DNA of 64,000 nucleotides from a virus, in IMG/VR virus record IMGVR_UViG_3300042695_002264, positions 106,519-170,518 of that record; one strand, given 5' to 3'. A program made the position numbers and the translations under genes. The notes under the pieces were generated by a model. That model worked only from the letters and a program-made list of their open reading frames with translations. It did no database searches and had not been told where the DNA came from. Of this stretch, positions 4,118 through 64,000 are shown one piece after another (the stretch's first letter is position 1; each line of letters opens with the position of its first letter).

Positions 4118-4119
4118 AA

Positions 4120-4908: not shown

Positions 4909-5294
4909 GTAGTTATTTTTAATCCAGTTTTCTTTTCTAACTTCTTAATTCTTTCTTTTCGTTCTTTTTGAACTACTTCTGGATGTTTTGCGCCATGCCT
5001 CTTTGCGGAATAGTCTTTATAATATTTTTTTCTAATAGGATCATTAAACCCGCCACGCTTTTCGCTTAATTCCCTAGAATAGTCCTGAATATCTCCTATG
5101 GTGCCTCTCATTTTTCCAGTCTTCTCTATAAAAGAGTTTTCAGAAGAAATATTTGTATCTATAGAGGCATTTGGAGAGTAGTAAATTCTTCTTAATTTTT
5201 TTCCATTGTGATAATATTCATGAACGTCATTCATGCCCTGAACTATATCATGAACTTCGCCACTATCATCATCAATGTAAGAATATATTGGCAT
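4905..5294 (-). CDS. FmdB-like small protein without zinc ligands
   Basis: 129 residues. The opening MPIYSYIDDDSGEVHDIVQG and MNDVHEYY-NGKKLRRIYYSP follows the layout of FmdB-type zinc ribbons (MPxYEYxCxxCGHxFE...SMSDP...CPxCG..VxRV), but every cysteine position is substituted. The C-terminal half is very basic (RKKYYKDYSAKRHG, KERKERIKKLEKKTG), suggesting nucleic acid or ribosome contact. Such cysteine-less versions occur in phages and their role is not known to me. It is embedded in the glycosyltransferase operon, with TAATG coupling to the gene upstream. Confidence 0.5.
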   Translation of the reverse strand: MPIYSYIDDDSGEVHDIVQGMNDVHEYYHNGKKLRRIYYSPNASIDTNISSENSFIEKTGKMRGTIGDIQDYSRELSEKRGGFNDPIRKKYYKDYSAKRHGAKHPEVVQKERKERIKKLEKKTGLKITT

Positions 5295-5515
5295 TATTTA
5301 TAGTCTTTGCTATTTCTTATAATTTCACACTTTGGGGTAACTCTTCTCCAAGAGCCATCTGGCATAATTTTATAAGATCTATCAGAGTGTTTAATAAGAT
5401 TTCCAGAGTTTTCTTTTAAGAAATCATTTCTAGTATGTTCAGCAAGTTTCTGCTTTAACTCCTCTTTATGCTTATTGTATTTTTGAATTTCTTTATTTTT
5501 ACTTTTTGATCCCAT
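5294..5515 (-). CDS. Small basic protein, function unknown
   Basis: 73 residues, rich in Lys and Arg, starting MGSKSKNKEIQKYNKHKEELKQ and predicted largely helical. It contains SYKIMPDGSWRRVTPK, a pattern I associate with uncharacterised small phage proteins. Two bases separate it from the upstream GT4 gene, and it is coupled to the FmdB-like gene downstream. I do not recognise a function. Confidence 0.5.
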   Translation of the reverse strand: MGSKSKNKEIQKYNKHKEELKQKLAEHTRNDFLKENSGNLIKHSDRSYKIMPDGSWRRVTPKCEIIRNSKDYK

Positions 5516-5516
5516 A

Positions 5517-6593
5517 TTATTTTATACTTTCTAGTATTTGACTGGTAGTTTTTTCCCAAGTAAATTCTTCTTGGAGTTTTAGCCCATTTTCATTTACAGG
5601 ATTAGATTTTACCTTTTCGATTGCTGCATCACATGCGTCAATAAATTCACTTGATGAAAAATCAAAAATATTACCTTGATTAAATGGCTGACCCTCTCTA
5701 AAGAAAATATTATCATATGCTGGAATTTTACCATTTGGAGTTACGCAAACAGAATTTTCTTCGTTCATCCAATCTTTATATCCATGAGCTTTTAGCCCAA
5801 CGCAATGCTTTCCAAGAGCAACAGAAGTGAATTCTGGTAACCCCCATGTTTCACCACCAGACATAGCAATTATAATGTGATTTGCATTTAAAAATTTATT
5901 ATAATCCGCGTTGTTGGGCATCCATGGCAGAAAATTGATATTAAAATAACTTTTACCCTCTAATGCCTGAGATATCATTGCGCTTTGATCTTCTGGCTTC
6001 AAGAAATTATTAAAAATGGCACAATTTAAATAAACATCATGCCTATTTCCATATTTTTTTGCCCATGCATTTAAAATTTTGAGGTGATGCTTTCTTTTTT
6101 CTAGTTTTCCAGCCAGACCAAAGCATATTCGATTGTCAGGATAGTTAATATTTTCAATTTTAAATGTATTTGAATCAAAACCAAGGGGTATGGCCTTACA
6201 ATTAATATCAAAATTAGAAAAAAGATTTGCGTAATGCTTTGATGGGACAAATACCATTTCTTGATTTTTCAAAATATTAAGCTCACGCGCAGTTGGGCTA
6301 TCCAACTCATAAAAAGTATAGAGATATTGTTTTTCTGAAACACTTTCTAGACTTCCGGTAATATGCCATAATTTTAGAACAGGATTCTTTTTAGAATGGG
6401 TTTCTTCTGATTTAATAGAGTTTGAAACAATCCAATTCACAAAATCATTTTCTGATTCAAGCATCGAATGATCAGGTTGACCTATATGAAATATAGATGG
6501 GTTTATTTGCTTTTTAAAAATCTCTCTAGCAATATTATTTGAACATTGACCCAAGCTAGTCTGATTGAATGGAAAATTTATAGCGAATTTCAT
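5517..6593 (-). CDS. GT4-family (GT-B fold) glycosyltransferase
   Basis: 358 residues. The N-terminal domain starts MKFAINFPFNQTSLGQCSNN, matching the glycine-rich acceptor loop of GT4 enzymes. LGFDSNTFK, then CFGLAGKLEKRKH and the motif GGETWGLPEFTSVALGK (about 243-260) give the donor-binding C-terminal domain with the E-x7-E retaining-transferase motif. It is the first gene of the leftward operon after the terminator at 6622-6656, so it probably has its own promoter in 6594-6621, although no clear box is visible. Likely transfers a sugar in the cytoplasm; substrate unknown. Confidence 0.8.
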   Translation of the reverse strand: MKFAINFPFNQTSLGQCSNNIAREIFKKQINPSIFHIGQPDHSMLESENDFVNWIVSNSIKSEETHSKKNPVLKLWHITGSLESVSEKQYLYTFYELDSPTARELNILKNQEMVFVPSKHYANLFSNFDINCKAIPLGFDSNTFKIENINYPDNRICFGLAGKLEKRKHHLKILNAWAKKYGNRHDVYLNCAIFNNFLKPEDQSAMISQALEGKSYFNINFLPWMPNNADYNKFLNANHIIIAMSGGETWGLPEFTSVALGKHCVGLKAHGYKDWMNEENSVCVTPNGKIPAYDNIFFREGQPFNQGNIFDFSSSEFIDACDAAIEKVKSNPVNENGLKLQEEFTWEKTTSQILESIK

Positions 6594-6621
6594 AAACGAT
6601 AATATTTAAATGATTTGAAAA

Positions 6622-6656
6622 ATCTAAAAAATAAAAGCCCAATTTTAGGTTGGGCT
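6622..6656 (-). terminator. Rho-independent terminator after the SSB-like gene
   Basis: Stem AGCCCAA (6636-6642) pairs with TTGGGCT (6650-6656) around a 7-nt loop. Read leftwards it is followed by TTTTATTTTTTAG. It separates the SSB/sigma unit from the glycosyltransferase operon. Confidence 0.75.
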
Positions 6657-6682
6657 CTTATTTGATTTATAGATAGTTAGAA

Positions 6683-6973
6683 TTAAAACGGAATATCGTC
6701 TTGATTATCTACCTCTTGAGAACTCTCTGACTGTTGTGGCTTTTTAGCCTTCGATTCAGGTTTAAGATCCTCCGATAGGTCGGAGAGTGTCAATCGGTAA
6801 TCAGGCTGGTTTGGCTTTGTCTTATTATTTTTAAAAATAAAAGCAGTATATTCGCCAGAACCAATCTTTACCTTTCCCGAAAGGAATTGTTTTCCATTTT
6901 TTTCTTTTTTCCAGAAGGCACCAACATCTGTTAGATCTGATGCATTATTACTTTTTTGCTTTGTATCGCTCAT
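6683..6973 (-). CDS. SSB-like / DUF736-like protein with acidic DDIPF tail
   Basis: 96 residues. The core GAFWKKEKNGKQFLSGKV, then YTAFIFKNNK and QPDYRLTLSD, resembles DUF736-type small beta proteins (G-x-F-K-K...G-x-G...NP-DYR). The tail QEVDNQDDIPF at 86-96 is the hallmark of bacterial SSB C-termini, which recruit replication and repair partners. The whole protein is shorter than classical SSB (about 150-180 aa). I infer a minimal ssDNA-binding or SSB-interactome decoy protein. It lies 5 nt after the sigma-like gene and is followed by a terminator. Confidence 0.55.
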   Translation of the reverse strand: MSDTKQKSNNASDLTDVGAFWKKEKNGKQFLSGKVKIGSGEYTAFIFKNNKTKPNQPDYRLTLSDLSEDLKPESKAKKPQQSESSQEVDNQDDIPF

Positions 6974-6978
6974 AGTTT

Positions 6979-7578
6979 TTATACTATATCTAGATTTGAT
7001 GTAGATTTCAATTTATTTTTCAAAAATGAAATAAATTTGTCATGCCAGTTTACAACTGTCTGTGTAGAAACCCCAAAATGATCAGCTATTTCTTTGAAGG
7101 TTTTTACTTTATTGCCTTCAGTAAAATATCTCATTTTTATTACTTCCTTTGCTGTTTCGTCTGATGACATGCTGATTATATTTTTAATATGTGATAGTAT
7201 ATCATTATCTTTTGCCTGATATGAGGCCTCTTCATTAGAGTACTGATCAGCCAAATATTTTAAAACATCGCTGTCCATTGTTGATTCTTTTTTGTACTGA
7301 TTGCATGCATTGAGACATGCATAAGTTACAATATTACCAAGCCAAGTTGAAAACTTCGCGCCAAATGATGGATCGAATGTTTTAGCTGCTTGATAAATAA
7401 GCGAATCTTTTTGCTCCTCAACGTCTTTTGCAATAGTTGAAGTGTTATTATGAAAATACTTGTTATATATTTTGTAACATATTCCAGAATGCCTATCAAT
7501 AAGGATTGACAGTGCGTCCTGACTTGCTTGATTCCTTACCATGTCGGCCAGATCGTTATCTTGTAGTTTATTAATCAT
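6979..7578 (-). CDS. Phage sigma-70-like factor (regions 2 and 4)
   Basis: 199 residues from the ATG at 7578. Residues about 20-110 look like sigma region 2 (ALSILIDRHSGICYKIYNKYF, then FDPSFGAKFSTWLGNIVTYAC, the 'F-S-T-W' of regions 2.3/2.4). Residues about 145-190 look like region 4 with a helix-turn-helix (VIKMRYF...TFKEIADHFGVSTQTVVNWHDKF). An in-frame ATG at 7626 exists, but that extension would be encoded by two strong hairpins, so I prefer 7578. It probably directs RNA polymerase to phage promoters. A second sigma-like protein is encoded at 46438-47121. Confidence 0.68.
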   Translation of the reverse strand: MINKLQDNDLADMVRNQASQDALSILIDRHSGICYKIYNKYFHNNTSTIAKDVEEQKDSLIYQAAKTFDPSFGAKFSTWLGNIVTYACLNACNQYKKESTMDSDVLKYLADQYSNEEASYQAKDNDILSHIKNIISMSSDETAKEVIKMRYFTEGNKVKTFKEIADHFGVSTQTVVNWHDKFISFLKNKLKSTSNLDIV

Positions 7579-7590
7579 AATGAATTTTAT

Positions 7591-7624
7591 AAAAACGCCT
7601 AGCGTTTTTGCGGCCTTTGGCCGC
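7591..7624 (-). promoter_or_regulatory. Twin hairpins in the leader of the sigma-like gene
   Basis: Two abutting perfect stems: AAAAACGC/GCGTTTTT (7591-7609, 3-nt loop) and GCGGCC/GGCCGC (7610-7624, loop TTT). Read leftwards, the first stem ends in a T-run followed by ATAAAA, like a terminator or attenuator just before the ATG at 7578. Read rightwards, the second is followed by ATTTATTTTTTT. A role as attenuator or insulator in this divergent region is inference. Confidence 0.45.
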
Positions 7625-7661
7625 ATTTATTTTTTTGTTCTAACATAAATTAATATTTAAC

Positions 7662-8084
7662 ATGTTTTGTTTGAAAAAGCAATATATTTTTTTATTATCT
7701 GTCATGGATATCTACTCAATACTCCTTATTTCAATAACAATATCAATGATTCTTTACTATGTGTATGAGACGAATGTTTTGTGGGAATATTTAAATAAAA
7801 TTTCTGATTTATTAAATTTTAATGGATCTAATAAGATTTTTTGCGGCATACTTTTGGTTAAGGCATATCCTAGCAGTGAAGAGCCAAACTATTTACAGTT
7901 TATTAATAAAATATATAATACTTTTACAACAAGACTACTATCGTGCCCAATATGTTTAGGATTTTGGATATGTCTAATCGCTGGTGTATTATCTGATATT
8001 ATTTTAGTGCCAACCTTTGCTTTTATTTCTCTAACAATGTATTACTTTATAAAAATTTTGACAAAACTATCTGCAAAAATATAA
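7662..8084 (+). CDS. Integral membrane protein with CPICLGFW motif (DUF1360-like)
   Basis: 140 residues. Hydrophobic stretches lie near residues 8-36 and 100-133. The motif LLSCPICLGFWICLIAGVL (about 93-111) matches the C-P-x-C-L-G-F-W signature of DUF1360-type membrane proteins found in phages and Firmicutes. A shorter start at ATG 7704 is possible and would still keep one N-terminal membrane segment. No function is established for this family; it is not clearly a holin. First gene of a rightward operon. Confidence 0.5.
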   Translation: MFCLKKQYIFLLSVMDIYSILLISITISMILYYVYETNVLWEYLNKISDLLNFNGSNKIFCGILLVKAYPSSEEPNYLQFINKIYNTFTTRLLSCPICLGFWICLIAGVLSDIILVPTFAFISLTMYYFIKILTKLSAKI

Positions 8085-8090
8085 TCCCTT

Positions 8091-8582
8091 ATGAAAAGCA
8101 TATCGTACTATAAACCAAATAGTCAAAACAAAGGTTCTGCTGCTCAATTTCAATTTGGAGCCAAAGAAAATGACTATGGCCTTTACCTTGGCATTGTTAA
8201 GCAATTCGGGTGGAATAGCCAATCGAAGCGCGGATCATTTTCTGAAAACTCAAAAAATCCACTAAAAAATAAAAAAATCAAGTTCAACAATACAGAGGCA
8301 TCTGCAATGTGTAGGGTGATAGAATCATCTTCTGAAAAATGGTCAACGGTGCATAAAAGTGAAACTAAAACCACCTCAATATCATTCTCTCACTATATCA
8401 AGGATGGCATAAAGTTGGGGTATGGCCTTTCTATAAGCGAAAAGGATGGAGAGGCATTCATGATTGGATTCAATAATGATGAAGGTTATTTACTTAAAGA
8501 ATTTTTAAAATCATATATTTTATTTACTTTCGATAAAAATAATGTTAATGATAGTGAAAATAAAAAACAATCAAATTTTTAA
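8091..8582 (+). CDS. Conserved phage protein, possible PC4/whirly-like ssDNA-binding fold
   Basis: 163 residues. The pattern YYKPNSQNKGSAAQFQFGAK, then KQFGWNSQSKRGSFSEN, SFSHYIKDGIKLGYGLSI and FNNDEGYLLKEFLKSYI recalls an uncharacterised family seen in large aquatic phages. The alternating polar strands followed by a C-terminal helix would fit a PC4/whirly-like beta-sheet plus helix fold, which binds ssDNA. That fold is my inference from the pattern. It sits one gene before the glycosyltransferase genes and lies in the same operon. Confidence 0.35.
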   Translation: MKSISYYKPNSQNKGSAAQFQFGAKENDYGLYLGIVKQFGWNSQSKRGSFSENSKNPLKNKKIKFNNTEASAMCRVIESSSEKWSTVHKSETKTTSISFSHYIKDGIKLGYGLSISEKDGEAFMIGFNNDEGYLLKEFLKSYILFTFDKNNVNDSENKKQSNF

Positions 8583-10535
8583 ATGAGAAAAAAGCGAGTA
8601 CTTTTCCTTACAGACTATGCAGGTGTAAATACTGGATTTGGTAAAAATATAAAATTACTTTTAACGTATTTATATAAAACAAAAAAATACGAATTATTTC
8701 ATGCAGCTTGCGGTGTTGGTAGGGATAATCCAGAATTTCAAAAATTTCCTTGGAAAACTATAGGGGTAATACCAAATGATCAGTCTTTTATTAGCAGAAT
8801 GCAACAAGATCAGCATTTTGCCAGAATGGCCAGCTATGGAGAGCCAGAAATAGCTAAAATTGTAGAAGAAACAAAACCAGATGTTATTTTTGCTATACAA
8901 GACAGCTGGGGCGCATTATTCGTAGCAGATAAGCCATTTTTTAAAAAAATTCCGACAGTTTGCTGGATTACATTTGATAGCCTTCCTCTTCTTCCAGACA
9001 CCGTTGAAAAAGCCAGCAAGATAGCCAACTATTGGACATGGTCAGATTTTGCAGAAAATGAATTTCATAAACTTGGATTTGATCACGTAAAAACTCAATA
9101 TCCATTAACTAATACGGATAACTTTTATCCGCTTTCAGAAAATGAAGTGCTTACTATAAAGCAGCAGCATGGTATTGAGAAAGATTGTAAAATATTTGGT
9201 TTTGTATTCAGAAATCAATTGAGAAAACTAGTTGGTACATTAATATCTGGATATTCAGAATTTTTAAAGCAAAATCCAGAGATGTCTAAAAAAACAAAGC
9301 TTTTGCTGCATACGCATTTTGCAGAAGGGTGGGATATTATGAGATTTGCAAAGCAATATGGGGTTCCTGAAGAAAATATTTTATGCACCTATATTTGCAA
9401 AGAAACTTATAAATACTTCATTCTCCCATACGCTGGGCAAGATATAGAAAATCCAACAACCAAAAGAAAAACATTAATAACCACAAATGTCAGTATTGGC
9501 GTAACTGATTCGCAATTAAACGAAATATATAATATAATGGATGCCTACCTGCATCCTGCAACATCTGGCGCATGCGAAATACCAATTGTTGAGGCTGCAT
9601 TAGCTGAAAAAATAGTATCTACATGCGACTATTCATTTGGCTGGAATGTTGTAAATCATAATAAGGGGTGTATTCCTATGGATTATTCACTTTACAATGA
9701 ACCTCCAATGGGATCAAGTACTCAGTTTTTAAAATCTCAACCTTATCCATCATCCATATCAAAAATAATGAAAAAAATTTGCGAAATGAAGAAAGATCGC
9801 AAAAAAGAAATGGAAAGACATTCTAGAGAATGGGCATTAAAAAATTATTCAGTTTCTGTAAATGGTGAAAAAATAGAAAATTTTATAGATTCGCAAAAAT
9901 TTATCGAAGATGAGCAGGCATGGGTAGACAAAGAAGTTAAAAATATCAATCCAAAAGCACAAATTCAAAATATTGATGATGACTTGCAGTGGGTATTGCA
10001 GCTTTATAGTAAAATATTAGACACTAATCCTGACCTCAACGATGATGGTGTTAGACATTGGATGATGCAAATTGAAAGAGGAATGCCAAGACAAAATATT
10101 GAATTATATTTTAGAGATGTTGCTAATAAAGAATTGCAAAAAGAAAATCCACAAACATTGGATGTTTTATTTGACAGTAGCGATAAGTTGAATAAATTAA
10201 AAAGACTATTAATTGTACAGCCACAAAGTGCTGGAGATATTTTTATAGTAACATCATTACTTGAATCAATCAGGTCAAAATTTACTAAAGACAAATGGAA
10301 GATATATTTTGCATGCGAGCCTAAATTTTTTGAAATCTTAGCTGGTAATGAAAACATAGATAAAATTATCCCATACAATCAAATTATGGATAATCAAATA
10401 ATTATGGAAGGTCATGGAGATCACAATGGTTATGTTGATATTTGCTTAAATCCATACTTTTCAACACAGAAGTTATTAAATTATACTCATAACAGTTATA
10501 GCATTTCTCAATTCGATCACGAGTTTAAAAAATAA
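8583..10535 (+). CDS. GT4 glycosyltransferase fused to DUF4214-like and N-terminal GT9 segments
   Basis: 650 residues in three parts. Residues 1 to about 440 form a GT-B transferase: VLFLTDYAGVNTGFGKNI at the N-terminus and HPATSGACEIPIVEAAL near 322-340 as the donor-site E-x7-E motif. Residues about 470-515 (LYSKILDTNPDLNDDGVRHW and RNIELYF-like helix) resemble a DUF4214 repeat, which often links glycan enzymes. Residues about 535-650 (RLLIVQPQSAGDIFIVTSLL, FACEPKFFEILAGN, IDKIIPYN) are the N-terminal half of a GT9 heptosyltransferase fold. The frame then stops at TAA (10533) in the middle of the GT9 domain, and the rest continues in the next gene in the +1 frame. Confidence 0.72.
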   Translation: MRKKRVLFLTDYAGVNTGFGKNIKLLLTYLYKTKKYELFHAACGVGRDNPEFQKFPWKTIGVIPNDQSFISRMQQDQHFARMASYGEPEIAKIVEETKPDVIFAIQDSWGALFVADKPFFKKIPTVCWITFDSLPLLPDTVEKASKIANYWTWSDFAENEFHKLGFDHVKTQYPLTNTDNFYPLSENEVLTIKQQHGIEKDCKIFGFVFRNQLRKLVGTLISGYSEFLKQNPEMSKKTKLLLHTHFAEGWDIMRFAKQYGVPEENILCTYICKETYKYFILPYAGQDIENPTTKRKTLITTNVSIGVTDSQLNEIYNIMDAYLHPATSGACEIPIVEAALAEKIVSTCDYSFGWNVVNHNKGCIPMDYSLYNEPPMGSSTQFLKSQPYPSSISKIMKKICEMKKDRKKEMERHSREWALKNYSVSVNGEKIENFIDSQKFIEDEQAWVDKEVKNINPKAQIQNIDDDLQWVLQLYSKILDTNPDLNDDGVRHWMMQIERGMPRQNIELYFRDVANKELQKENPQTLDVLFDSSDKLNKLKRLLIVQPQSAGDIFIVTSLLESIRSKFTKDKWKIYFACEPKFFEILAGNENIDKIIPYNQIMDNQIIMEGHGDHNGYVDICLNPYFSTQKLLNYTHNSYSISQFDHEFKK

Positions 10536-10536
10536 T

Positions 10537-11760
10537 ATGTCACATCTATTAGAAACTTACAGCTTGCAAACTGGAGCAAAGGCATCAAAGCCTTTTATAA
10601 TTAAAAACTTTTTCCCAGTACCAAAAAAGTACATAACCATTCACAATTCTAGCGGAATGGGCGCAAAAAATTATGATCATTTTCAAGATGTAATTGATGA
10701 GATTTTAGTGAAGTTAAAAGACAATGGTATTGAAATTGTACAAATTGGTGGAGCAGAAGATCTAGCCCTCAATGGATGCGTTCATTTACATGGCAGAACA
10801 AATTATCACCAAACCGCATATATCATTCAAAATTCACTCCTTCATATTGGAAATGACAGTTTTCCCGTCCATATCGCATCTGCGGCGGACAGGCCCATTA
10901 TAGCTCTATATAGTATAACCACGCCAAGTATTGCTGGCCCATGCTTTAATTCAAAAGAAATAAATGACTATAAAGTTTTTTGCTTTTCTCCAGACTATAA
11001 AGGCAAAAAGCCATCCTTTAATCCCAACGAAAGTCCAAAAACAATAAATACAATAAATTTTGAAAATATTATTGAAGCAATTGAAAAGATATTAAATATC
11101 GATACTGGATATAATATAAAAACTATATTCAAAGGGGACAAATATCTTGCAAGAGTTATAGAATTTATTCCAGATACATTGCTTAGACCAGACTTTGCTG
11201 GCGGTAGTTTGATAAACATGAGAGTTGATCTGTGTAACGGCGATATTGATGAAAATTTAATATTTGCAAATTTAAAAAGTAGGAAGTTTAACATATTTTT
11301 AAAAAATTCTAAAAAAATTAAAAATTTGCATATATTGCCTATGTTAAAAGAAAATATTGCTAATATATTCATTGATGTTACTGATGAGGTGGTAGATATT
11401 GAATACATATCATCATTAGTAAATTATGGAATAAAACCAACAATATTATATACTGGAGAAGATGAAGATTATTTTAACGAAATTAAAATAAATTTAATAA
11501 ATTTTAATTTGAATTTTATAAAATACTCTCCACAAAAAATAAAAATAGAGGATATTGTAAAAAATAACAATATTGATAATATTATATTCAAAACAAATCG
11601 CCTCATTTTAAGTTCTGGAAAATTATACCTTTCCATAGCATCTTACTTAAATGGTCAAAGCTCAAACAGTAATTTTGAAAAATTAAACGAAATTAAAAAC
11701 TACAAAGATCTTGACAAAGAATTAGAATTCTGTTATCTTTATATCAAAGAAGATAAATAA
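10537..11760 (+). CDS. C-terminal half of GT9 heptosyltransferase domain plus unknown region
   Basis: 407 residues starting one base after the previous stop. Residues about 30-150 carry the GT9 donor-binding half: YITIHNSSGMGAKNYDHF, IVQIGGAEDLAL, HLHGRTNYHQTAYIIQNS, HIGNDSFPVHIASAADRP and IALYSITTPSIAGPC. Together with the end of the previous gene this makes one complete GT9 fold. The remainder (about 180-407) is a Rossmann-like or wrapping domain rich in Ile, Asn and Lys that I do not recognise. It may be translated separately by reinitiation or as a fusion by +1 frameshifting. GT9 enzymes add heptose to lipopolysaccharide core; the real acceptor here is unknown. Confidence 0.68.
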   Translation: MSHLLETYSLQTGAKASKPFIIKNFFPVPKKYITIHNSSGMGAKNYDHFQDVIDEILVKLKDNGIEIVQIGGAEDLALNGCVHLHGRTNYHQTAYIIQNSLLHIGNDSFPVHIASAADRPIIALYSITTPSIAGPCFNSKEINDYKVFCFSPDYKGKKPSFNPNESPKTINTINFENIIEAIEKILNIDTGYNIKTIFKGDKYLARVIEFIPDTLLRPDFAGGSLINMRVDLCNGDIDENLIFANLKSRKFNIFLKNSKKIKNLHILPMLKENIANIFIDVTDEVVDIEYISSLVNYGIKPTILYTGEDEDYFNEIKINLINFNLNFIKYSPQKIKIEDIVKNNNIDNIIFKTNRLILSSGKLYLSIASYLNGQSSNSNFEKLNEIKNYKDLDKELEFCYLYIKEDK

Positions 11761-11762
11761 TT

Positions 11763-12539
11763 ATGCCTAAAACATCTCAAAAAACAGAAACAGTCGTAGT
11801 CAATTCAGATAGCAATCCTACTGTAGATAGTGATTCGAAAATTTTTTCTAGAAATGAAAGTGGTCTTTTAAATAATACCAAATATAAATACAGCGACGAT
11901 GGAACAATTAACTGGAAATCCATGGTTAAACCAGAATTCTTAGTCCCAAACAAGGATAAATTTACAGCAACAACAGATTTTAATTCTATTGACGTAACCC
12001 AGCTCGACGACAGTCAGCTTTTAATCCTTCTTGGCGGCATTAAAGATGTTGCTTGCATAAGGGGATTCTCTTCCGTTGATTATGATGTTATTACTGCCAG
12101 ACAGGACTATGTTGCAGTTAAATGTAATATATCTTGGATTGCTAATTATGAAACTGGAATGATACCTGTAAAATTTTCAGCCTTAGCTGACGCCCATTTC
12201 GAGAATACGAGTGGTTTTGGTAATAAGTTTTTAATGGCAATTGCAGAAAATAGAGCGTTTATTCGCGCAGTTCGTAATTTTCTTAGAATTAATATTGTTG
12301 GCCAAGACGAAATCGATCCAAAAAAGAAAAATGAAATTATTGAAGAATCCCAACCAACAAATCCAGCTAGTGTTTTAAACAAAGTTATGTCTGAGGTGGG
12401 CTTGAGTTTTGAAACAATAAAGGCAAAGCTTGTAACTGAAAATGATCAAGATGCGGCTGAATGGAATGCAATTTCAGATATTCCCAAAAAACGAATATTT
12501 GAAATTATAGAGAGAATTAAAAGAAAAAATAAAAACTGA
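11763..12539 (+). CDS. Possible ssDNA-annealing recombinase (Erf/Rad52/DdrA-like motif)
   Basis: 258 residues. After a low-complexity N-terminus, residues about 95-185 contain strands (DYDVITARQDYVAVKCNISW) and then ALADAHFENTSGFGNKFL and MAIAENRAFIRAVRNFLRIN. The A-E-x-R-A-x-x-R-A-x-R helix is the recognisable motif of Erf/Sak/DdrA-type annealing proteins. The C-terminus (about 205-258) looks like a small UBA- or HHH-like helical tail with basic end KRKNKN. With the SSB-like gene on the other strand it could serve recombination. The call rests mainly on one motif. Confidence 0.4.
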   Translation: MPKTSQKTETVVVNSDSNPTVDSDSKIFSRNESGLLNNTKYKYSDDGTINWKSMVKPEFLVPNKDKFTATTDFNSIDVTQLDDSQLLILLGGIKDVACIRGFSSVDYDVITARQDYVAVKCNISWIANYETGMIPVKFSALADAHFENTSGFGNKFLMAIAENRAFIRAVRNFLRINIVGQDEIDPKKKNEIIEESQPTNPASVLNKVMSEVGLSFETIKAKLVTENDQDAAEWNAISDIPKKRIFEIIERIKRKNKN

Positions 12540-12543
12540 CAAG

Positions 12544-13107
12544 TTATTCGCCTTCACTTGGCAAATCTGGCGGCTTCGAAAACGGTGAAGGCAAGAACAT
12601 AAAGCCATCACATGATTGAAAAAGTATTAAATCATTTGTTACGTGTCTTTGAATTTTAAATAAAGTATCATTAAATTCAAAAATAGAGCCGTCACCATCA
12701 AAGCTAGCAAGCGGATAGATACTCAGTATAGGGATCCTTAATGCAACTTGCCCAGACAATGTTTTTGATTGTTCGTCACTATATTCTTGCATAGATGGAT
12801 AATTTTCCCACCATTGATTGTTATAATTAAAATTTGCAGCAAATGGATTTCCATTATTAAAAAAAACTTCCAACCAAACCTTCCATAACGAATCGCTTGT
12901 AACTGGGATAGCAACATCCTTATTGGATATATTTAGAGTACTATCTGCTGACAAACCAATAAAAATATTAGAATTTGTATTGATATTGACAGTATTTAAT
13001 GTTGAAGAGCATATTGGCGCAAATGGTCCAATTTCAGCCCTTTCTGGATATTTTGTGCTGATCCCTGGCGAACCAAATGGCTCATTTTTTAATATAAAGT
13101 TGCTCAT
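12544..13107 (-). CDS. Virion structural protein, function unknown
   Basis: 187 residues with no recognised domain. It is rich in Asn, Ser, Pro and Phe, with aromatic clusters (NNQWWENYPSMQEY) typical of virion accessory proteins. It is the last gene of the leftward morphogenesis operon and converges with the annealing-protein gene only 4 nt away, without an obvious terminator. Position after the baseplate-type genes suggests a distal tail component. Confidence 0.5.
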   Translation of the reverse strand: MSNFILKNEPFGSPGISTKYPERAEIGPFAPICSSTLNTVNINTNSNIFIGLSADSTLNISNKDVAIPVTSDSLWKVWLEVFFNNGNPFAANFNYNNQWWENYPSMQEYSDEQSKTLSGQVALRIPILSIYPLASFDGDGSIFEFNDTLFKIQRHVTNDLILFQSCDGFMFLPSPFSKPPDLPSEGE

Positions 13108-13113
13108 AATTAA

Positions 13114-14280
13114 TTATACAACATAGGAGTAATATTCCCTAAAAATATTTATATTAGAACCCAAGATCCCTGTTTTATAAAAATTATTACCAGAAATAGA
13201 ATAGAATGCTGAACCAGTAAAGCCTATATTTTGATTTGGTTGTTCTATCTGCTTGTATACTTCGATTTTTTTATTCTGCTCAAATATATTTGGGCTAACA
13301 TTCATTTTTCCACTATACAATTCGCCTGTTAGCAAAGCATTTTGCCCATCAATTATAAGAGACCAAGATCCGGTAAATGTATCTTGATAGCCATTTTGAT
13401 TAATATTATTACCTTCATATCCACTAATAAAAATATACGCTTCTGATGTTTCTTTATCAGTATTTTTGAAAGTAAGATCAAATATAAAAGATGATCTCAA
13501 TAATGAATTAGCTTCTGATATGGAAGTTGACGGATTAATACTCAATAATAAATCTTGTGTTGGAGATTTTTTATACCTAGATATAAACAAATTTCTTCCT
13601 ATAATTCCAGCATTTGTATGTAAAATTAATGGTATATAAGTATCAACAAATGGAAGTCTATCTTGTATTTGTTCGATATTAAAATTAAAAATTTGATTTT
13701 TATCTATTTTAATTCCAGTTTTCCAATCATTTACTCCAGATATTTGAAAATAAAGTGATTGAATATTATTATTAAAATTACTATTTCTGCCTATTTCTCC
13801 AGAATATAAAATGAATGGGCCATTGTTATTTTTATTTCCAGATATTGTAACTTGCACATTTTCAGTGGAAAAGCCTGAATTTTCATATATAAAATCTATA
13901 ATAGGTAATTCCCCATAAAAAAAGGTTTTAGGAAAAAAATCTTTACTATCCCAACTATATCCTGTTGTCCAATTAAATGAGAACCCACTGGCTTTTCCAA
14001 AATTTCCAGTTTTTGAATAAATGTATTGATCGTTTAAAAATATATTAAAATAATTTTCAGAATAATTTCCTGAAATATTTACAATACTTTGCGGCTGAAA
14101 AGAATAAATAAAATTATTTTCATCAAAAATTTTTCCACTAACAAAATTTATATTTAAATTTTGATTTGTATTGGTGACAATTTCAAAATTGCCACTCCAA
14201 TCATTTTGTTCATTATTCCAAAAAAAATTAAATATACAATTTTTTTGCGGATATATATAGTTTGTAAATCCAGTAATCAT
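13114..14280 (-). CDS. Tail-tip/fibre-like protein, unknown
   Basis: 388 residues with many short beta-strand-like stretches rich in G, N, S, F and I, and repeated V/I-S-G turns (FVSGKIF, NISGNYS, QISGVND, FISGYEG, SISGNNF). This resembles the fibre proteins elsewhere in the window in composition rather than by alignment. The ATG overlaps the upstream stop as ATGA, so translation is coupled. Probably a distal tail or adhesion protein; no catalytic motif seen. Confidence 0.5.
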   Translation of the reverse strand: MITGFTNYIYPQKNCIFNFFWNNEQNDWSGNFEIVTNTNQNLNINFVSGKIFDENNFIYSFQPQSIVNISGNYSENYFNIFLNDQYIYSKTGNFGKASGFSFNWTTGYSWDSKDFFPKTFFYGELPIIDFIYENSGFSTENVQVTISGNKNNNGPFILYSGEIGRNSNFNNNIQSLYFQISGVNDWKTGIKIDKNQIFNFNIEQIQDRLPFVDTYIPLILHTNAGIIGRNLFISRYKKSPTQDLLLSINPSTSISEANSLLRSSFIFDLTFKNTDKETSEAYIFISGYEGNNINQNGYQDTFTGSWSLIIDGQNALLTGELYSGKMNVSPNIFEQNKKIEVYKQIEQPNQNIGFTGSAFYSISGNNFYKTGILGSNINIFREYYSYVV

Positions 14281-16550
14281 GAAAATGTATTAGATGTATT
14301 GTTTCTTTTTGAAGAAGTTATTATCCTAAAAGATTTTGGACGTATAGGTATTTCTTTATATGAGTAAGAAACTCTAAGACCCCTGCTATCTAAAGATGCG
14401 CTTAAAGACTCTAAACCAGGGACAATTGGCAGGAAAAAACCATCACATTCCGCAGACAGAGTAGATAGCCATTTTTGACCATTTCCACCAATAGCCGCAG
14501 GAACTTCAAAAGAAGTAGATGGTTCATTTTCATTTGGCGTCACATCGGTTACGATAACACTGTGCGATAGCCCATAATCGCTATTGACTGGACCAGAAAA
14601 TCCCCAAGAATTTATAGCCTGAGCATATCCAGTTTGATTAGATGAGGAATATTCGCTTTTTATGGTTCTAATCGCTTTAAAGCTAGCAAGTGATGGCATA
14701 ACTACCTTTATTGACTTTCCATTACAATCAATAGAGTAAGATTTTCCTCTGGCATGCTCTAATCCTGGAGATAATTCTGCTGAATTTTCGGAACCATTAT
14801 TAATTACAACATCACGATTTGCATTAATTAAATTTGGAACAATATCTGCGCATTCATCAACTATATCAGGCTTGTCTTGAGGCGGAACAGGATCAAGTAT
14901 TGCATTTGGGTCCTCATAATCATAAACTTCTGTTAAGTCATTTGGATTTTCAGATTCAGATGCTGAAGTAATAGTAATATTATATCTTGGTCGCTTTACA
15001 AATATAATAACCTTTCCATCTTCTTCTATTTGCTTTCTTAATCTTTCCCCAGAAGATACGTAACCCCCAGACTCTTCATTGTTAGTAGTCGGTGCAACTA
15101 AAGTAACTGGAGTGCCTTCTTGGGGGAGGCTTTTTTGGTCATAAATTTGACATATTAAATCATGAGAAACTGTTTTAATACAATCTTCAACTGCCTGAGC
15201 AAAATCTGCCGCCTCAACATCTCCAGAAACATGCTCGCTTACACTGCGCCAATAGCCCTTTCTAACAATATTATTTTGATCTTCAAATGTGCTATTGTAT
15301 GGATTTTTGCCTCTCTGTGAAGGGGGTGGATTAAAAGAAGTTTGTATTTTTTTAAAATTAAACTCGTCTCCACCAGAGCCATTAAAATCGTAAGATTCAT
15401 CATAAGGATAATACAATTCTTGAGTATATTCCTTTGATTGAATATTATTATTCAAAGGATATGCCAAATAAAAATCACCATCTCCATCAATATTTAAATA
15501 TTTAAATATTGCATCTCGAAAATTAGTATTTTTTGAATCAAAATTAAAGTTTGTTGATAAAAAATTTCTCCATTTTGGATCTGTAAGATTTAAAGACATT
15601 TCAATTTTAGATAATACATTATAGCCTAATTTTCTATAGTCTCCATTTGTTAATGCATTATAAACTGATAATGATGGGCAAACTTTTTCTAAAACTTCAT
15701 TATCGGTTGGAAAATTTGGGTGAAGAATTGGAGAAATTGAAACATGCTTATTATCTGTAATATTTAACGCAGCTTCTTGGGTTTGTTTAGTTGGCCATCT
15801 TTCAAAAAACCAAGATGATTGAGAAGATACCCCATCTCTAGTCGCTCCATAATCAAGAGACAAAATCCCACAACCTCCTTGAGGAACATTAATTCTTATA
15901 GAGCCATTTTTTATAGCAACTATTTCATCTTTTCTCCAGTCCCACCACCATCCAATTCCCACATCTGAATAAATACCACCTAAAACACTTCTGTATGTTC
16001 CTTCATAAGAGCACCTTAAATTTTCAGAAATTTTAGGCGCACCAATTATAGCTAATGCTTGATTTGCATTATATGTGACATTGCTAGAGTCACATGGGTT
16101 TGATGACCACTCTTCCTGCCCCAAACCTCCAGCCGAATAGCCAGCCTGTCTTTGCACAACTATATTTAAATTTTTAACTCCAAAACTAAAACTAACTCTT
16201 CCCCTATCATAGCTCGCATTTACTGCTGGAACACTTACGGTTTTTGCTATATTAATTGGCCTTCCGCCAAGCCCTCTTCTAAATAAAACTATGCATTTTT
16301 GATCAAGAGTTATAGAATTATCTATATACTCATAAGTTGTTAAAAATTTTCCTTGTTCTTTATGCGTAGAATAAGAAATTAGCTGCCCAATAAATTCTAT
16401 ACCACCAATGCCGCCGATATTAGATCGATTAAATCCACGATCGCCCAATGTAGTAACTGATAATTTTGCTGGAGAATCGCTAACAGAAGCGCTTAAAGAT
16501 AGCGAAACTATATCTTTATTTGCTCCAATACTTCTTATTTGAATAGCCAT
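14277..16550 (-). CDS. Large baseplate or tail-hub candidate
   Basis: 757 residues, starting at ATG 16550. The N-terminus (MAIQIRSIGANKDIVSLSLSA) is followed by beta-rich sequence and an unusual WWWDWRKDE tract near 205. Acidic linkers (EDPNAILDPVPPQDKPDIVD) lie in the middle, and a C-terminal beta domain contains SLSASLDSRGLRVSYSYKEI. Size and position (fourth gene after the tape measure) suit a hub or tail-tip protein, but I cannot match a family. The TAA of the upstream gene falls in TGTAAT just before this start. Confidence 0.45.
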   Translation of the reverse strand: MAIQIRSIGANKDIVSLSLSASVSDSPAKLSVTTLGDRGFNRSNIGGIGGIEFIGQLISYSTHKEQGKFLTTYEYIDNSITLDQKCIVLFRRGLGGRPINIAKTVSVPAVNASYDRGRVSFSFGVKNLNIVVQRQAGYSAGGLGQEEWSSNPCDSSNVTYNANQALAIIGAPKISENLRCSYEGTYRSVLGGIYSDVGIGWWWDWRKDEIVAIKNGSIRINVPQGGCGILSLDYGATRDGVSSQSSWFFERWPTKQTQEAALNITDNKHVSISPILHPNFPTDNEVLEKVCPSLSVYNALTNGDYRKLGYNVLSKIEMSLNLTDPKWRNFLSTNFNFDSKNTNFRDAIFKYLNIDGDGDFYLAYPLNNNIQSKEYTQELYYPYDESYDFNGSGGDEFNFKKIQTSFNPPPSQRGKNPYNSTFEDQNNIVRKGYWRSVSEHVSGDVEAADFAQAVEDCIKTVSHDLICQIYDQKSLPQEGTPVTLVAPTTNNEESGGYVSSGERLRKQIEEDGKVIIFVKRPRYNITITSASESENPNDLTEVYDYEDPNAILDPVPPQDKPDIVDECADIVPNLINANRDVVINNGSENSAELSPGLEHARGKSYSIDCNGKSIKVVMPSLASFKAIRTIKSEYSSSNQTGYAQAINSWGFSGPVNSDYGLSHSVIVTDVTPNENEPSTSFEVPAAIGGNGQKWLSTLSAECDGFFLPIVPGLESLSASLDSRGLRVSYSYKEIPIRPKSFRIITSSKRNNTSNTFS

Positions 16551-42495: not shown

Positions 42496-44400
42496 TTAAA
42501 TTAGAGTTGGTATAAACTGTTCTCTTTTAATTTGAACATGGGTTTTGATTAATTCAAAATAACACTTTACGCCCCAGTTTCCTAATAATAGGGTGCTATA
42601 GTTATCTTTTCTAGGTTTATTATTTGCCGTTGAAGTTCTGGCCGATCTTGGAAGGTCAAAGCTTTGATGACCTCTGGAGGTTGATGTTACCTCAATATTT
42701 GCACACTGTTCTTTTGTTGAAATAATAATATCATCCTGAAGTTCAATAAATTCTCTTATTGATAATTTTCTATTATCTTCTTTAGAGTCGCCCTCTATAA
42801 CGCCAGATCCATGAGGAAATACTAATTTTAATGGAATTCTTAAATTAAACATATAAGACATATATTCTGGATGATTGCTCGCGCGAGAAGCAAACCATAT
42901 TTTTTTATGATCAATGCATGACTGCAAATAAGAATTAGATCTCATAATCCAATCCGTGCTTGGCGTTTGTCTAATGCACATGCATCCCATGTCTGGACTA
43001 TATTGTTTTTTTGCTTTAATAAGCATATCCACTTGATCCTGACCATCTTTAGTAGAATCCCATTCTGTTATATATGTTATTTTCTTATTTGCACCTTTAA
43101 ACAATTCGCTTTCATTGCATGCATCAATTATTGTATCTATGTTTGAAGAGTCTGCTATAATTAAAACCGTATTAAAATGCGTTAATACATAATAGATATA
43201 TTTTATGTGGTCCTGTAAATCTGCGCCAATTCTTTGATAGCCATGTACCAAAACCCCTTCTTCTTTTTCTTCATCAATCTCTATAACCGACATTGCAAAA
43301 AAGTCTGATGATGCACTTTTTGAATAATTTGGGTCAATTGATAATATATATTTTTTTAAAGGATCACCAGTAACTTTAGAATGTGGATATTCACCATCTG
43401 GAATGGTACATTCATTCATTTTACGCATGGAAAAATATCCATCGCCACCATCACGAAATTGTGCGCCATATTCGCGTTGAAATGAATCTTCTGATATACT
43501 TGCTCTTTGTGACTGAATAAACTCTCGGTTTAATATGGTTGCTGGTATAGCTTCCCATCCCATTTGTGATATAAAATAAGTTGGCCTTTCCTCTTCCTTA
43601 TTATTCATCGTCAAAATATCTGGACGTTCTACAAAATCATTCCAGTCAGAGTACATTTTATATAAATGCTGAAATTGATAAGATGCAGATGACAAGCAAA
43701 TCATTTGCGCGGCATTTTCAAAAATCATTTTATTATTAGGATGTAATGTGCCAGCTTTAATTAGCTCGTCCTCTAATTTTCTAACTTTAATTCTAAACGC
43801 AGCATCTCTTGGTGAAGACAGGAATGGTGCTAATACATCATTAATCATCTGTGGAGATAATAGCAAAACCTCATCAAGGATAAGAACGTCACAGCGCATA
43901 CCTCGCGTATCTTCAGAAAGTGGAATGGCGCATATATATCCACCATTAACGTCCCATTGAAATTTATCGTTTCTTAAATATGGTTTTTTGTCAAAGCATG
44001 ATCTTGCAAGCTGAGCTTCTTCTGTGTTTAATAGCCTTACAATTTCTTCAAAAATTCTACGGCTTGTTCTAAAATTCGCTGAAGCAATAACAATTCTAGT
44101 ACCAGGCTCAAATATGCATTTTAATATACAATACCAACCAGCTAAAGTAGATTTCCCACCACCACGACTAAAAATAAGCATGCAATTATTCTTTTCAAAC
44201 ATTGCATTTATATGCATAACCTGCATAGGCTCCATATTAATACCAAGAATTAATTGTGATGTAAATCCAATATTATGGCGCAAAAATTTTGCTAAAGTTA
44301 TTTTAGCCGTTCTATCATCAAGCTCTCCATGAAGATTTAGCAGTTCTTTATTTACATCTGCTATATCTTTTACTGGTTGATTTCCTGCCCAAATTGCCAT
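42496..44400 (-). CDS. terL: Terminase large subunit
   Basis: 634 residues. The N-terminal ATPase has Walker A MLIFSRGGGKST (74-85) and Walker B DVLILDEVLLLSP (about 170-182), with a coupling-type segment AAQMICLSSASYQF near 235. The C-terminal RNase H-like nuclease begins with ILSIDPNYSKSASSDFFAM (about 350), where the first Asp is catalytic, and LIIADSSNID near 415 supplies the second acidic residue. The enzyme cuts and packages DNA into the procapsid through the portal encoded next to it. Length is usual for large terminases. It starts 2 nt after the nuclease-like gene upstream. Confidence 0.93.
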   Translation of the reverse strand: MAIWAGNQPVKDIADVNKELLNLHGELDDRTAKITLAKFLRHNIGFTSQLILGINMEPMQVMHINAMFEKNNCMLIFSRGGGKSTLAGWYCILKCIFEPGTRIVIASANFRTSRRIFEEIVRLLNTEEAQLARSCFDKKPYLRNDKFQWDVNGGYICAIPLSEDTRGMRCDVLILDEVLLLSPQMINDVLAPFLSSPRDAAFRIKVRKLEDELIKAGTLHPNNKMIFENAAQMICLSSASYQFQHLYKMYSDWNDFVERPDILTMNNKEEERPTYFISQMGWEAIPATILNREFIQSQRASISEDSFQREYGAQFRDGGDGYFSMRKMNECTIPDGEYPHSKVTGDPLKKYILSIDPNYSKSASSDFFAMSVIEIDEEKEEGVLVHGYQRIGADLQDHIKYIYYVLTHFNTVLIIADSSNIDTIIDACNESELFKGANKKITYITEWDSTKDGQDQVDMLIKAKKQYSPDMGCMCIRQTPSTDWIMRSNSYLQSCIDHKKIWFASRASNHPEYMSYMFNLRIPLKLVFPHGSGVIEGDSKEDNRKLSIREFIELQDDIIISTKEQCANIEVTSTSRGHQSFDLPRSARTSTANNKPRKDNYSTLLLGNWGVKCYFELIKTHVQIKREQFIPTLI

Positions 44401-62590: not shown

Positions 62591-62618
62591 TTGCTTTCTC
62601 GGTGATCTGTGGTAGAGT
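62591..62618 (+). promoter_or_regulatory. Leaderless promoter P1
   Basis: TTGCTT (62591-62596), 16-bp spacer, TAGAGT (62613-62618), then 6 nt to the ATG at 62625. Preceded by an A-rich tract (UP-element-like) and the shared ATCCC before the -35. Confidence 0.8.
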
Positions 62619-62624
62619 GTAGAC

Positions 62625-62810
62625 ATGAAGAAGAAATACTACACCAGCACAGAGATCCTTGAGTATGCGAATAAGAACAACGCAGCTTGCATCTCTGCAT
62701 CTGTGAGCCTGCGAGTGTTCCGCTACTGGACTAGCAAAGGTCAATACGAAGTGAAGTTCTACAGGGTAGAGCCTTGCGTGTGGGAGAAAAAAATCGTAAA
62801 AAAACCCTAA
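62625..62810 (+). CDS. Small early-type protein, unknown
   Basis: 61 residues, basic (MKKKYYTSTEILEYANKNNA ... VWEKKIVKKP). STEILEYANKNN looks like the start of a small helix-turn-helix of MerR/excisionase type, followed by a strand with RYWTSKGQYEVKFYRVEP; this reading is tentative. Expected transcript starts at or next to the ATG, so no ribosome site is needed and none is seen. First of four similarly organised genes. Confidence 0.55.
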   Translation: MKKKYYTSTEILEYANKNNAACISASVSLRVFRYWTSKGQYEVKFYRVEPCVWEKKIVKKP

Positions 62811-62817
62811 AGATCCC

Positions 62818-62845
62818 TTGACTTTAATGACAGCTCTGATAGATT
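62818..62845 (+). promoter_or_regulatory. Leaderless promoter P2
   Basis: TTGACT (62818-62823), 16-bp spacer, TAGATT (62840-62845), then 6 nt to the ATG at 62852. Same ATCCC before the -35 box. Confidence 0.8.
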
Positions 62846-62851
62846 AAATAC

Positions 62852-63082
62852 ATGAATACATTCGAAGACTACATCAAACACAACGGCAAAGAATACTACC
62901 TCTGCACAGAGTATGCGTTCGATCACACTGATCAGTTGCAACTCTCTGGCTTTGTCTTGACTGATGAAGACGGCGAAGACATCTCGCAAGATGACTTCGA
63001 AGCGAACAAGGATCTTTACGATCATGTCTGCATGGTTCTTGCTAACGAAGATGCTACCTGCTACGGCGGCGCACCTTGCTAA
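62852..63082 (+). CDS. Small acidic early-type protein, unknown
   Basis: 76 residues, strongly acidic (TDEDGEDISQDDFEANKD). It has a YYLCTEYAFDHTDQLQLSGF strand region and ends DATCYGGAPC, with four cysteines in all. Acidic small early proteins are often inhibitors of host enzymes or defence systems, but nothing in the sequence proves that here. It has its own leaderless promoter. Confidence 0.5.
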   Translation: MNTFEDYIKHNGKEYYLCTEYAFDHTDQLQLSGFVLTDEDGEDISQDDFEANKDLYDHVCMVLANEDATCYGGAPC

Positions 63083-63086
63083 CACT

Positions 63087-63173
63087 ATGACACACATCAT
63101 TATGACATACATTGCAGAGGCGCTTGCCGTGGTGCTTATCCTCCTGCTTGGCGTTGCGATTCTCTCGATCTAA
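63087..63173 (+). CDS. Very small single-pass membrane peptide
   Basis: 28 residues, MTHIIMTYIAEALAVVLILL and LGVAILSI. The stretch from about 8 to 28 is hydrophobic enough to span the membrane. It starts 4 nt after the stop of the acidic gene, so it could be made from the same transcript by reinitiation. Its stop codon is the first triplet of the left 25-bp palindrome. No ribosome site is visible, so whether it is translated is uncertain. Confidence 0.35.
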   Translation: MTHIIMTYIAEALAVVLILLLGVAILSI

Positions 63174-63195
63174 GTTGTTCTAAATCAACGACTTA
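63171..63195. repeat. 25-bp imperfect palindrome, left copy
   Basis: TAAGT-N15-ACTTA; the 9-bp arms TAAGTTGTT and AACGACTTA match at 8 of 9 positions when paired. Partner of the copy at 63221-63245. Operator-like. Confidence 0.6.
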
Positions 63196-63220
63196 CAACG
63201 GGCCACCCTGCGCGCGCGCG

Positions 63221-63245
63221 TAAGTCCTTGATAATGAGGCACTTA
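63221..63245. repeat. 25-bp imperfect palindrome, right copy
   Basis: TAAGT-N15-ACTTA; arms TAAGTCCTT and AGGCACTTA match at 7 of 9. Starts 50 bp after the left copy, with a 25-bp GC-rich spacer containing a CGCGCGCGCG run. Confidence 0.6.
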
Positions 63246-63299
63246 CGAATGTCAAGTAAAAAAGATAAAAAAAATTTCACACAATCGCAAAAAAATCCC

Positions 63300-63327
63300 T
63301 TGCTTTTTCGGTGGCCTGTGATACATT
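63300..63327 (+). promoter_or_regulatory. Leaderless promoter P3
   Basis: TTGCTT (63300-63305), 16-bp spacer ending in the extended-type TGA, TACATT (63322-63327), then 6 nt to the ATG at 63334. Closely resembles P1, including the upstream A-rich tract and CGGTG in the spacer. Confidence 0.82.
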
Positions 63328-63333
63328 GTATGT

Positions 63334-63681
63334 ATGAAAGATAAAGAAAACACCACGTTCAACGTCAACGGAACCCTTTGCACGCTCGTCGTCTCGGAAG
63401 ATCGGGAGGATGATTGCACGAAGCTTTGGCATGACCTCGTCAGCGTTGACACTGGCAAGGTCGTCGCAACCCTCGACTGGTCGCCCTACTCTTGCCCCTC
63501 TAATGAGGAAGTGCAGCAGATCATCGACCTCGGCCTGCCTAATGGCTTGCGTTGGGCTAACTCTCACCCTTCTTCTCGCTTCAACTTCGATAGCCTCATG
63601 CTGGCGAAATACCTCTCTGGCTACGAGCATCCCGATGGCGGCAAGATCGAACTGGTCTTCCGCGTTCGCTTGGCCGCATAA
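63334..63681 (+). CDS. Small early-type protein, unknown
   Basis: 115 residues. A first strand pair NTTFNVNGTLCTLVVSEDRE and LVSVDTGKVVATLDWSPYSC is followed by a helix (SNEEVQQIIDLGLPNGLRWA) and a C-terminal KIELVFRVRL strand. A small alpha/beta protein with no family I recognise. Codons are rich in G and C compared with the virion genes. It has its own leaderless promoter. Confidence 0.55.
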   Translation: MKDKENTTFNVNGTLCTLVVSEDREDDCTKLWHDLVSVDTGKVVATLDWSPYSCPSNEEVQQIIDLGLPNGLRWANSHPSSRFNFDSLMLAKYLSGYEHPDGGKIELVFRVRLAA

Positions 63682-63689
63682 AAAAACTC

Positions 63690-63718
63690 TTGCGCTTCCA
63701 CTCAACATCCCATACTCT
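63690..63718 (+). promoter_or_regulatory. Leaderless promoter P4
   Basis: TTGCGC (63690-63695), 17-bp spacer, TACTCT (63713-63718), then 6 nt to the ATG at 63725. Boxes are weaker than in P1-P3, but position and geometry are the same. Confidence 0.6.
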
Positions 63719-63724
63719 AACAAT

Positions 63725-63934
63725 ATGAACAGCATCCACGACGACTACAACACGCAACCGCAATCCGACGAATACGCGACCGAGCACGAGGAAGTGCGCG
63801 GCACGTTCGCCGCCGAGCCTGCCGTTGAGCAGGAGCCGCAACCCTATGATGGGTTTGAGGGGCAGTGGGCTGTGGATGGGTCGGGCTTCGACGACCTCGC
63901 AGACTGGGGCGAGCAGGAGGGCTGGGACACGTAA
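63725..63934 (+). CDS. Small, highly acidic protein, possible DNA mimic
   Basis: 69 residues, dominated by Asp, Glu, Gln, Gly and Trp (EYATEHEEVRGTFAAEPAVE, FDDLADWGEQEGWDT), with only two Arg/Lys residues apart from His. The start ATG at 63725 follows P4 by 6 nt; a longer frame from 63410 in the same phase overlaps the preceding gene and is rejected. Very acidic small early proteins include DNA mimics that block restriction or polymerase, such as Ocr; that is only an analogy here. Composition is the most GC-rich of the window. Confidence 0.5.
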   Translation: MNSIHDDYNTQPQSDEYATEHEEVRGTFAAEPAVEQEPQPYDGFEGQWAVDGSGFDDLADWGEQEGWDT

Positions 63935-64000
63935 GAGTGTCATAAACTTTCTCCGAACGTTTCGATGCGTGTCTCCATGACGCGGGAATAAACGATGAGG

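Follow-up and report, generated by a model that had tools for sequence, protein, structure and literature searches.

Small genes at the end of a virus contig very probably form an array of leaderless transcription units, in which sigma70-type promoters would be set to start transcription on the A of the ATG and the messages would be translated without Shine-Dalgarno (SD) pairing. The window, a stretch of 64,000 nucleotides, comprised bases 106519-170518 of this 170,518-base contig and contained four of the promoters (P1-P4), all on the forward strand. An earlier note on this DNA had described four small genes, each behind a promoter whose -10 box ends exactly 6 nt before the ATG, and these positions were confirmed by direct reading.

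P1 (62591..62624) was composed of TTGCTT (62591-62596), 16 bp, TAGAGT (62613-62618) and 6 nt, followed by the ATG at 62625. P2 (62818..62851) had TTGACT (62818-62823), 16 bp, TAGATT (62840-62845) and 6 nt before the ATG at 62852. P3 (63300..63333) had TTGCTT (63300-63305), 16 bp, TACATT (63322-63327) and 6 nt before the ATG at 63334. In P4 (63690..63724) the spacer was 17 bp, between TTGCGC (63690-63695) and TACTCT (63713-63718), again with 6 nt before the ATG at 63725. The ATCCC and A-rich stretch reported upstream of three promoters were seen at P1-P3, and reading of the sequence gave no SD-like site before any of the four genes.

Genes behind P1-P4

The four genes, all on the forward strand, encode proteins of 61 aa (gene 1, 62625..62810), 76 aa (gene 2, 62852..63082), 115 aa (gene 3, 63334..63681) and 69 aa (gene 4, 63725..63934), none with a significant match in Pfam or PHROGs. 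Orthologues in two relatives, G003 and G011, had identities of 46-100%, and their alignments began at Met 1 or no more than a few residues away. Gene 1 was 53-54% identical to its G011 orthologue and gene 2 was 78% (G003) and 88% (G011) identical, in both cases from Met 1. The values were 76-77% in both relatives for gene 3, and 96% (G003) and 84% (G011) for gene 4. Differences fell mostly at third codon positions, most clearly in genes 2-4. Counts at codon positions 1/2/3 were 8/9/34 (G003) and 8/3/23 (G011) for gene 2, 23/11/52 (G003) and 17/12/43 (G011) for gene 3, and 1/2/9 (G003) and 6/7/24 (G011) for gene 4, with a weaker third-position bias in gene 1 (16/19/25). Judged from these alignments, the ORFs behind P1-P4 are real genes.

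Where the orthologue has retained a promoter of its own (P1, P3 and P4), the segment from the -35 box to the ATG was free of indels. At P1, the stretch from promoter to ATG aligned in this way to the G011 orthologue. The orthologous promoters of P3 kept the spacing in both G003 and G011, and P4 was conserved in both. The P2 promoter, by contrast, was missing before the orthologues of gene 2 in both relatives, where the gene sits behind another gene. Promoter and gene therefore appear to be recombinable, in units of one or several genes, and gene 2 is not always a unit of its own. The claim that each gene is its own transcription unit was thus only partly upheld. P1-P4 are each a promoter of their gene's own, but multi-gene units occur, and a hydrophobic 28-aa ORF (63087..63173, forward strand) begins 4 nt after gene 2 as a possible second gene of the P2 unit. 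This candidate gene had no match in G003 or G011, and the first TAA of an intergenic element, element E, treated below, serves as its stop codon.

Extent of the array

Positions 63746-64000 of the window repeated contig 1-255 with one mismatch. The two contig ends therefore join, and the array carries on from contig position 1. The junction is also crossed by G001, a near-identical relative, in which P3 and the promoter before contig 2098 are separated by 2509 bases, as they are here. The contig is probably a complete genome. The record is classed as linear, though its ends overlap by these 255 bases.

At least 9.6 kb of further array lay past the junction. Promoters with this geometry were found before the ATGs at contig 750, 1462, 2098, 2867, 3051, 3264, 4231, 5617, 7331, 8538 and 9302, some of them lacking one base of TANNNT, and a TCGCTT variant promoter was found before contig 524. 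The array in total held 12 sites of the strict pattern (TTGNNN-N16/17-TANNNT-N6-ATG) and about 16 promoters by looser criteria, in about 11 kb. Its units hold one to about six genes.

Two classes of promoter were present. In the TTGC class, ATCCCTTGC...CTGTGNTA was common to many units and relatives. The second class, TTGACA with 17 bp (for example at contig 1462, 3264, 7331 and 8538), also had the 6 nt and was unrelated in sequence. Median pairwise identity over the 35 nt upstream of the ATGs was 0.40. The spacer between the -35 and -10 boxes varied from 16 to 17 bp, while the 6 nt between the -10 box and the ATG were constant.

Spacing between the -10 box and the ATG

The 6-nt spacing was far commoner than expected. 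Between 62591 and 63727 there were 4 strict sites, whereas 2000 dinucleotide shuffles averaged 0.0075 (maximum 1), and in the 11.15-kb array the 12 strict sites compared with a mean of 0.055 in 1000 such shuffles (maximum 2). A scan of motif density against shuffled controls had been proposed in the earlier note, together with a refutation test set in advance on whether the spacing is commoner than chance in the adjoining genome. Both were run, and the attempt at refutation failed.

At other distances from 0 to 20 nt the strict pattern gave 0-2 sites each in the array. A slightly looser pattern, followed over distances of 0-40 nt, gave 11 sites at 6 nt and 0-3 elsewhere. With a generic E. coli sigma70 matrix, which was not trained on this phage, 13 matches were found in the array at 6 nt and 0-2 at each other distance, and this spike was repeated in G003 (10), G011 (11) and G015 (11). 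The spike was confined to ATGs that open ORFs and was absent from control ATGs. It was weakest in G003, where the looser count was broad over 4-7 nt. Outside the array the contig had a wider maximum, spanning 4-9 nt and highest at 6, and the AT-rich remainder contained many loose matches at all distances. Over the whole 170,518-base contig, the motif of the earlier note matched 7 times on the forward and 3 times on the reverse strand (reversed pattern: 0 and 0), and 7 of these 10 matches fell in the array.

Position of the transcription start

We compiled 217 distinct 6-nt promoters of the lineage, a set that includes near relatives and does not represent independent events. The base before the ATG was C in 50% of them and C or T in 79%. 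The corresponding values were 15% and 49% for ATG-opened ORFs of at least 100 aa, and 15% and 40% for control ATGs. In this phage, all 16 promoters examined had C or T at -1. The logo of the 217 promoters also contained an extended -10 (TG at -15/-14, 65% and 60%), and positions +4 to +8 after the start were A-rich. At bacterial transcription starts, -1 is preferably a pyrimidine and +1 a purine, and the -1 preference found here is what transcription beginning on the A of the ATG would be expected to show. This evidence is indirect, though independent of the spacing. Bacterial start sites usually vary by one or two bases around the -10 box, and some messages may therefore carry a leader of 1-2 nt.

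We suggest that the first gene of each transcription unit would have its own strong sigma70-type promoter, made up of TTGACA or TTGC, 16-17 bp and usually an extended TGN TANNNT, and that the A-rich DNA upstream would suit an UP element. RNA polymerase would start on the A of the ATG, leaving no leader or one of 1-2 bases at most, and host ribosomes would initiate at the AUG of the 5' end without SD pairing. Promoter activity and the exact start sites in the array are predicted from sequence, as is use by the unmodified host RNA polymerase early in infection. The leaderless reading given in the earlier note finds support in the 6-nt spacing, the pyrimidine at -1 and the lack of SD sites.

The promoters could also be real while their starts scatter 1-5 nt upstream, which would give very short leaders and SD-free initiation and make leaderlessness incidental. 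The wider spread of distances outside the array would agree with such scatter, as would the many genes with neither an SD site nor a near promoter. However, the distance in the array is almost always 6 nt across sequences otherwise little alike, and the -1 pyrimidine preference points to the A of the ATG. We consider scattered starts unlikely.

The constant spacing might instead be due to descent, one promoter-ATG block having been copied and the genes behind it swapped. The sequence shared across the TTGC class in many units and relatives is what such copying would leave, and gene 2 has a promoter that its orthologues lack, as if it had been fused to a promoter module. Copying may explain part of the TTGC class. 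As a general explanation it is improbable, however, given that the 6 nt also occur in the TTGACA/17-bp class, whose sequence is unrelated, that identity before the ATG is low and that the spacer varies where the 6 nt do not. Recent block duplication as the sole cause was rejected, since the 6 nt are common to two promoter classes that have no sequence relationship.

A still smaller probability attaches to the boxes being a translation signal associated with the start, or the binding site of a regulator, and not promoters. Such a role was proposed for the SAS of cluster K mycobacteriophages (PMC3203893), which the boxes do resemble as a motif that recurs a short, fixed number of bases before the starts of small non-structural genes. 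The motif is nevertheless scored by a generic sigma70 matrix, with the -35 box, spacer, extended -10 and -10 box all present, and it has no anti-SD complementarity, whereas SAS holds AGGAG. Chance matches are a negligible explanation and were rejected, for although AT-rich phage DNA has many loose hexamers, the spike was absent from shuffles, the reversed pattern, other distances and control ATGs, and it was repeated in relatives.

Translation and Shine-Dalgarno sites

None of 15 array genes had an SD-like site, in agreement with the earlier note, which had seen no ribosome sites there. In the other genes of the contig such sites occurred at 6%, against a background of 6%. The same count gave 47% in T4, 59% in SPO1, 58% in P23-45 and 41% in an Acidobacteriota phage, and a distant relative (G023) was intermediate, with 22% against 3%. 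Since SD-like sites are at background throughout the contig, SD-free initiation would be phage-wide, and the idea that bypass of SD pairing is special to the array fails. Leaderless initiation is probably not the sole SD-free route, because several genes inside units have neither a promoter nor an SD site. Translation without SD pairing looks like the normal mode of the lineage.

Leaderless initiation is usually seen as a side route in bacteria and as an oddity in phages. Here a widespread uncultured lineage appears to use leaderless messages for the majority of genes in an expression block, and to be without SD sites elsewhere. Gene callers that rely on SD sites or on the longest ORFs will misplace starts in such genomes, and the array is a source of compact promoter-ATG parts.

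A two-dyad element between units

Element E (63171..63245, 75 bp) was made up of a pair of 25-bp dyads (TAAGTNNTTGANNNTCAANNACTTA), set at exactly 50 bp from each other, and a GC-rich core. There were about 14 copies in this genome, the one in the window and about 13 at contig 310-15660 (L011), located between transcription units. Seven copies were found in G003 and five in G011. A search of IMG/VR with element E alone recovered 19 contigs, most of which also had 6-nt promoters.

RNA folding of the element gave z values of -0.8 to -2.6. Positions were conserved without compensatory changes, and the core was unpaired in many copies, both of which disfavour an RNA terminator. Because of this conservation without compensatory change, element E is more likely to be a DNA site, apparently one that binds a protein, than an RNA hairpin. 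It may be an operator, an insulator or a recombination site. The sequence of element E was not found in the literature searched, and two-dyad 75-bp elements between units are new. A tentative extension, which we regard as possible but rather doubtful, is that the lineage has a leaderless early transcriptome of interchangeable modules (element E, A-rich DNA, promoter, +1 start codon and gene), in which E, with a protein of phage or host bound to it, would either insulate the units or allow their exchange, as with gene cassettes.

A single dyad with the sequence of those in element E was also present in the Bordetella plasmid BPP5P1 (L179:1502-1528). It was intergenic, with a mobilization gene on one side and a type IV secretion gene on the other, and the plasmid is IncP-typed. 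Other plasmids gave similar matches, the hits being from a Providencia rettgeri plasmid, an uncultured source and Cupriavidus (H28, H29 and H30). Variants of the two-dyad element in which the core is an AT-rich hairpin were found at L182:2707-2781, L196:7384-7458 and L198:5127-5201, on phage contigs that had neither the 6-nt promoters nor the terminase.

Timing and the rest of the genome

The array units are probably expressed early, because their promoters are of sigma70 type, their genes are small and of unassigned function, and they lie beside tRNAs. Their products may act in host takeover. Before structural genes (window 1-62195 and L014), TGTAAT was 8.5-fold enriched, and 4 of 66 structural genes had a promoter of the 6-nt type near the ATG. 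This is consistent with the structural genes forming a separate late class, with TGTAAT as a candidate late promoter element.

The phage carried 21 tRNA genes in several clusters (L011-L014), none of them in the window. It also encoded a UV endonuclease UvdE, an IMP dehydrogenase-like protein, a RuvB-like helicase and a bacterial-type DNA polymerase III alpha subunit. Their genes lie at L011:18321-19220, L013:2645-3643, L012:15378-16346 and L015:570-3152, all on the minus strand.

Relatives, lineage and host

The large terminase (window 42496-44400, (-)) served as the marker of the lineage. In IMG/VR it had 44 close relatives by its own patterns and at least 584 by profile, and a few dozen of these relatives were tested for the 6-nt excess. 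No close named phage relative was found; among the matches listed, GenBank phage terminases were 20-27% identical. The 6-nt promoters outnumbered the reversed pattern in G001 (7 and 2 vs 0) and G003 (8 and 2 vs 0), as well as in a 154-kb record (G025, 36 vs 5) and a 140-kb record (G026, 33 vs 6). Members with terminases 35-58% identical had the same arrays.

A homologous large terminase was present in 15 of the 22 tested records that had the array or element E. The terminase-less records were G048, G060 and G061, which had no 6-nt promoters, and four contigs shorter than 23 kb. By these sequence comparisons, the array layout is one that recurs throughout a terminase-sharing lineage of uncultured water phages.

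When the terminase profile was compared with GTDB genomes, one relative was detected, in a MAG labelled Flavobacteriales. The motif was not in excess in this MAG (8 vs 7). Across 61 Bacteroidota genomes, the MAG included, there were 163 motif matches against 215 of the reversed pattern, and so no excess in the one phylum that the test covered. The suggestion that the array tells the host group was not borne out in this form, as the array names no host. What can be read from it is a bacterium whose promoters are of sigma70 type (TTGACA, extended TGN TATAAT) and whose translation initiation is SD-independent. The lineage thereby gives a testable prediction for its host: sigma70-type promoters and SD-independent ribosomes.

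Comparison with known systems

Leaderless genes of bacteria have been defined by a TANNNT about 12 bp before the start (Zheng et al. 2011, PMC3160421). In Deinococcus such boxes were shown experimentally to act as promoters, the -10 motif alone being sufficient and the -35 enhancing it (PMC12340547). The array units are like these TA-led genes of Actinobacteria and Deinococcus-Thermus in having the first T at -12 (4 of 4 in P1-P4) and no SD site, and in that the message is expected to start at the ATG, here from sequence and the -1 pyrimidine preference. In the array units examined a -35 box was present. TA-led genes are also scattered over the chromosome, whereas the units here are packed in a phage array with repeated spacer elements.

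In the cluster O mycobacteriophage Corndog, PL1 and PR2 are predicted to be leaderless, and 17-bp dyad repeats are present (PMC4351075). Both phages thus share phage promoters of sigmaA type, a +1 that is the first base of the start codon, and many short dyad repeats. Here about 16 promoters stand in a row, compared with two or three per genome in Corndog, and unlike element E the Corndog dyads are single, of another sequence and mostly not tied to promoters.

In cluster K mycobacteriophages, many small non-structural genes have a Start-Associated Sequence (SAS/ESAS), a repeat lying 3-7 bp before the ATG and often preceded by inverted repeats (PMC3203893). The end of the -10 box 6 nt before the ATG in nearly every array unit is a similar arrangement. 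Unlike SAS, the array had neither the consensus GGGATAGGAGCCC with its anti-SD complementarity nor an SD-like site before its genes; SAS holds the AGGAG core of the SD sequence, while the repeated part here is the promoter. The host-takeover module of SPO1 contains small genes mostly of unassigned function and several promoters (PMC6873191). The array is like it as a cluster of small genes, with some 16 promoters of their own in 11 kb. The strong ribosome-binding sites of SPO1 have no counterpart here.

The lambda cI message from PRM is a phage message translated without a leader, and Thermus phage P23-45 reportedly has leaderless transcripts. Unlike P23-45, more than half of whose genes have SD-like sites, the present phage had none above background. 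The literature searched gave no description of a phage array of such density and uniformity. The remark in the earlier note that no described system with this exact layout was known stands for the systematic array and does not stand for its single units, as leaderless TANNNT genes are known in bacteria and predicted in Corndog. What is new is the systematic array of leaderless promoters, whereas leaderless TANNNT genes as such were already known.
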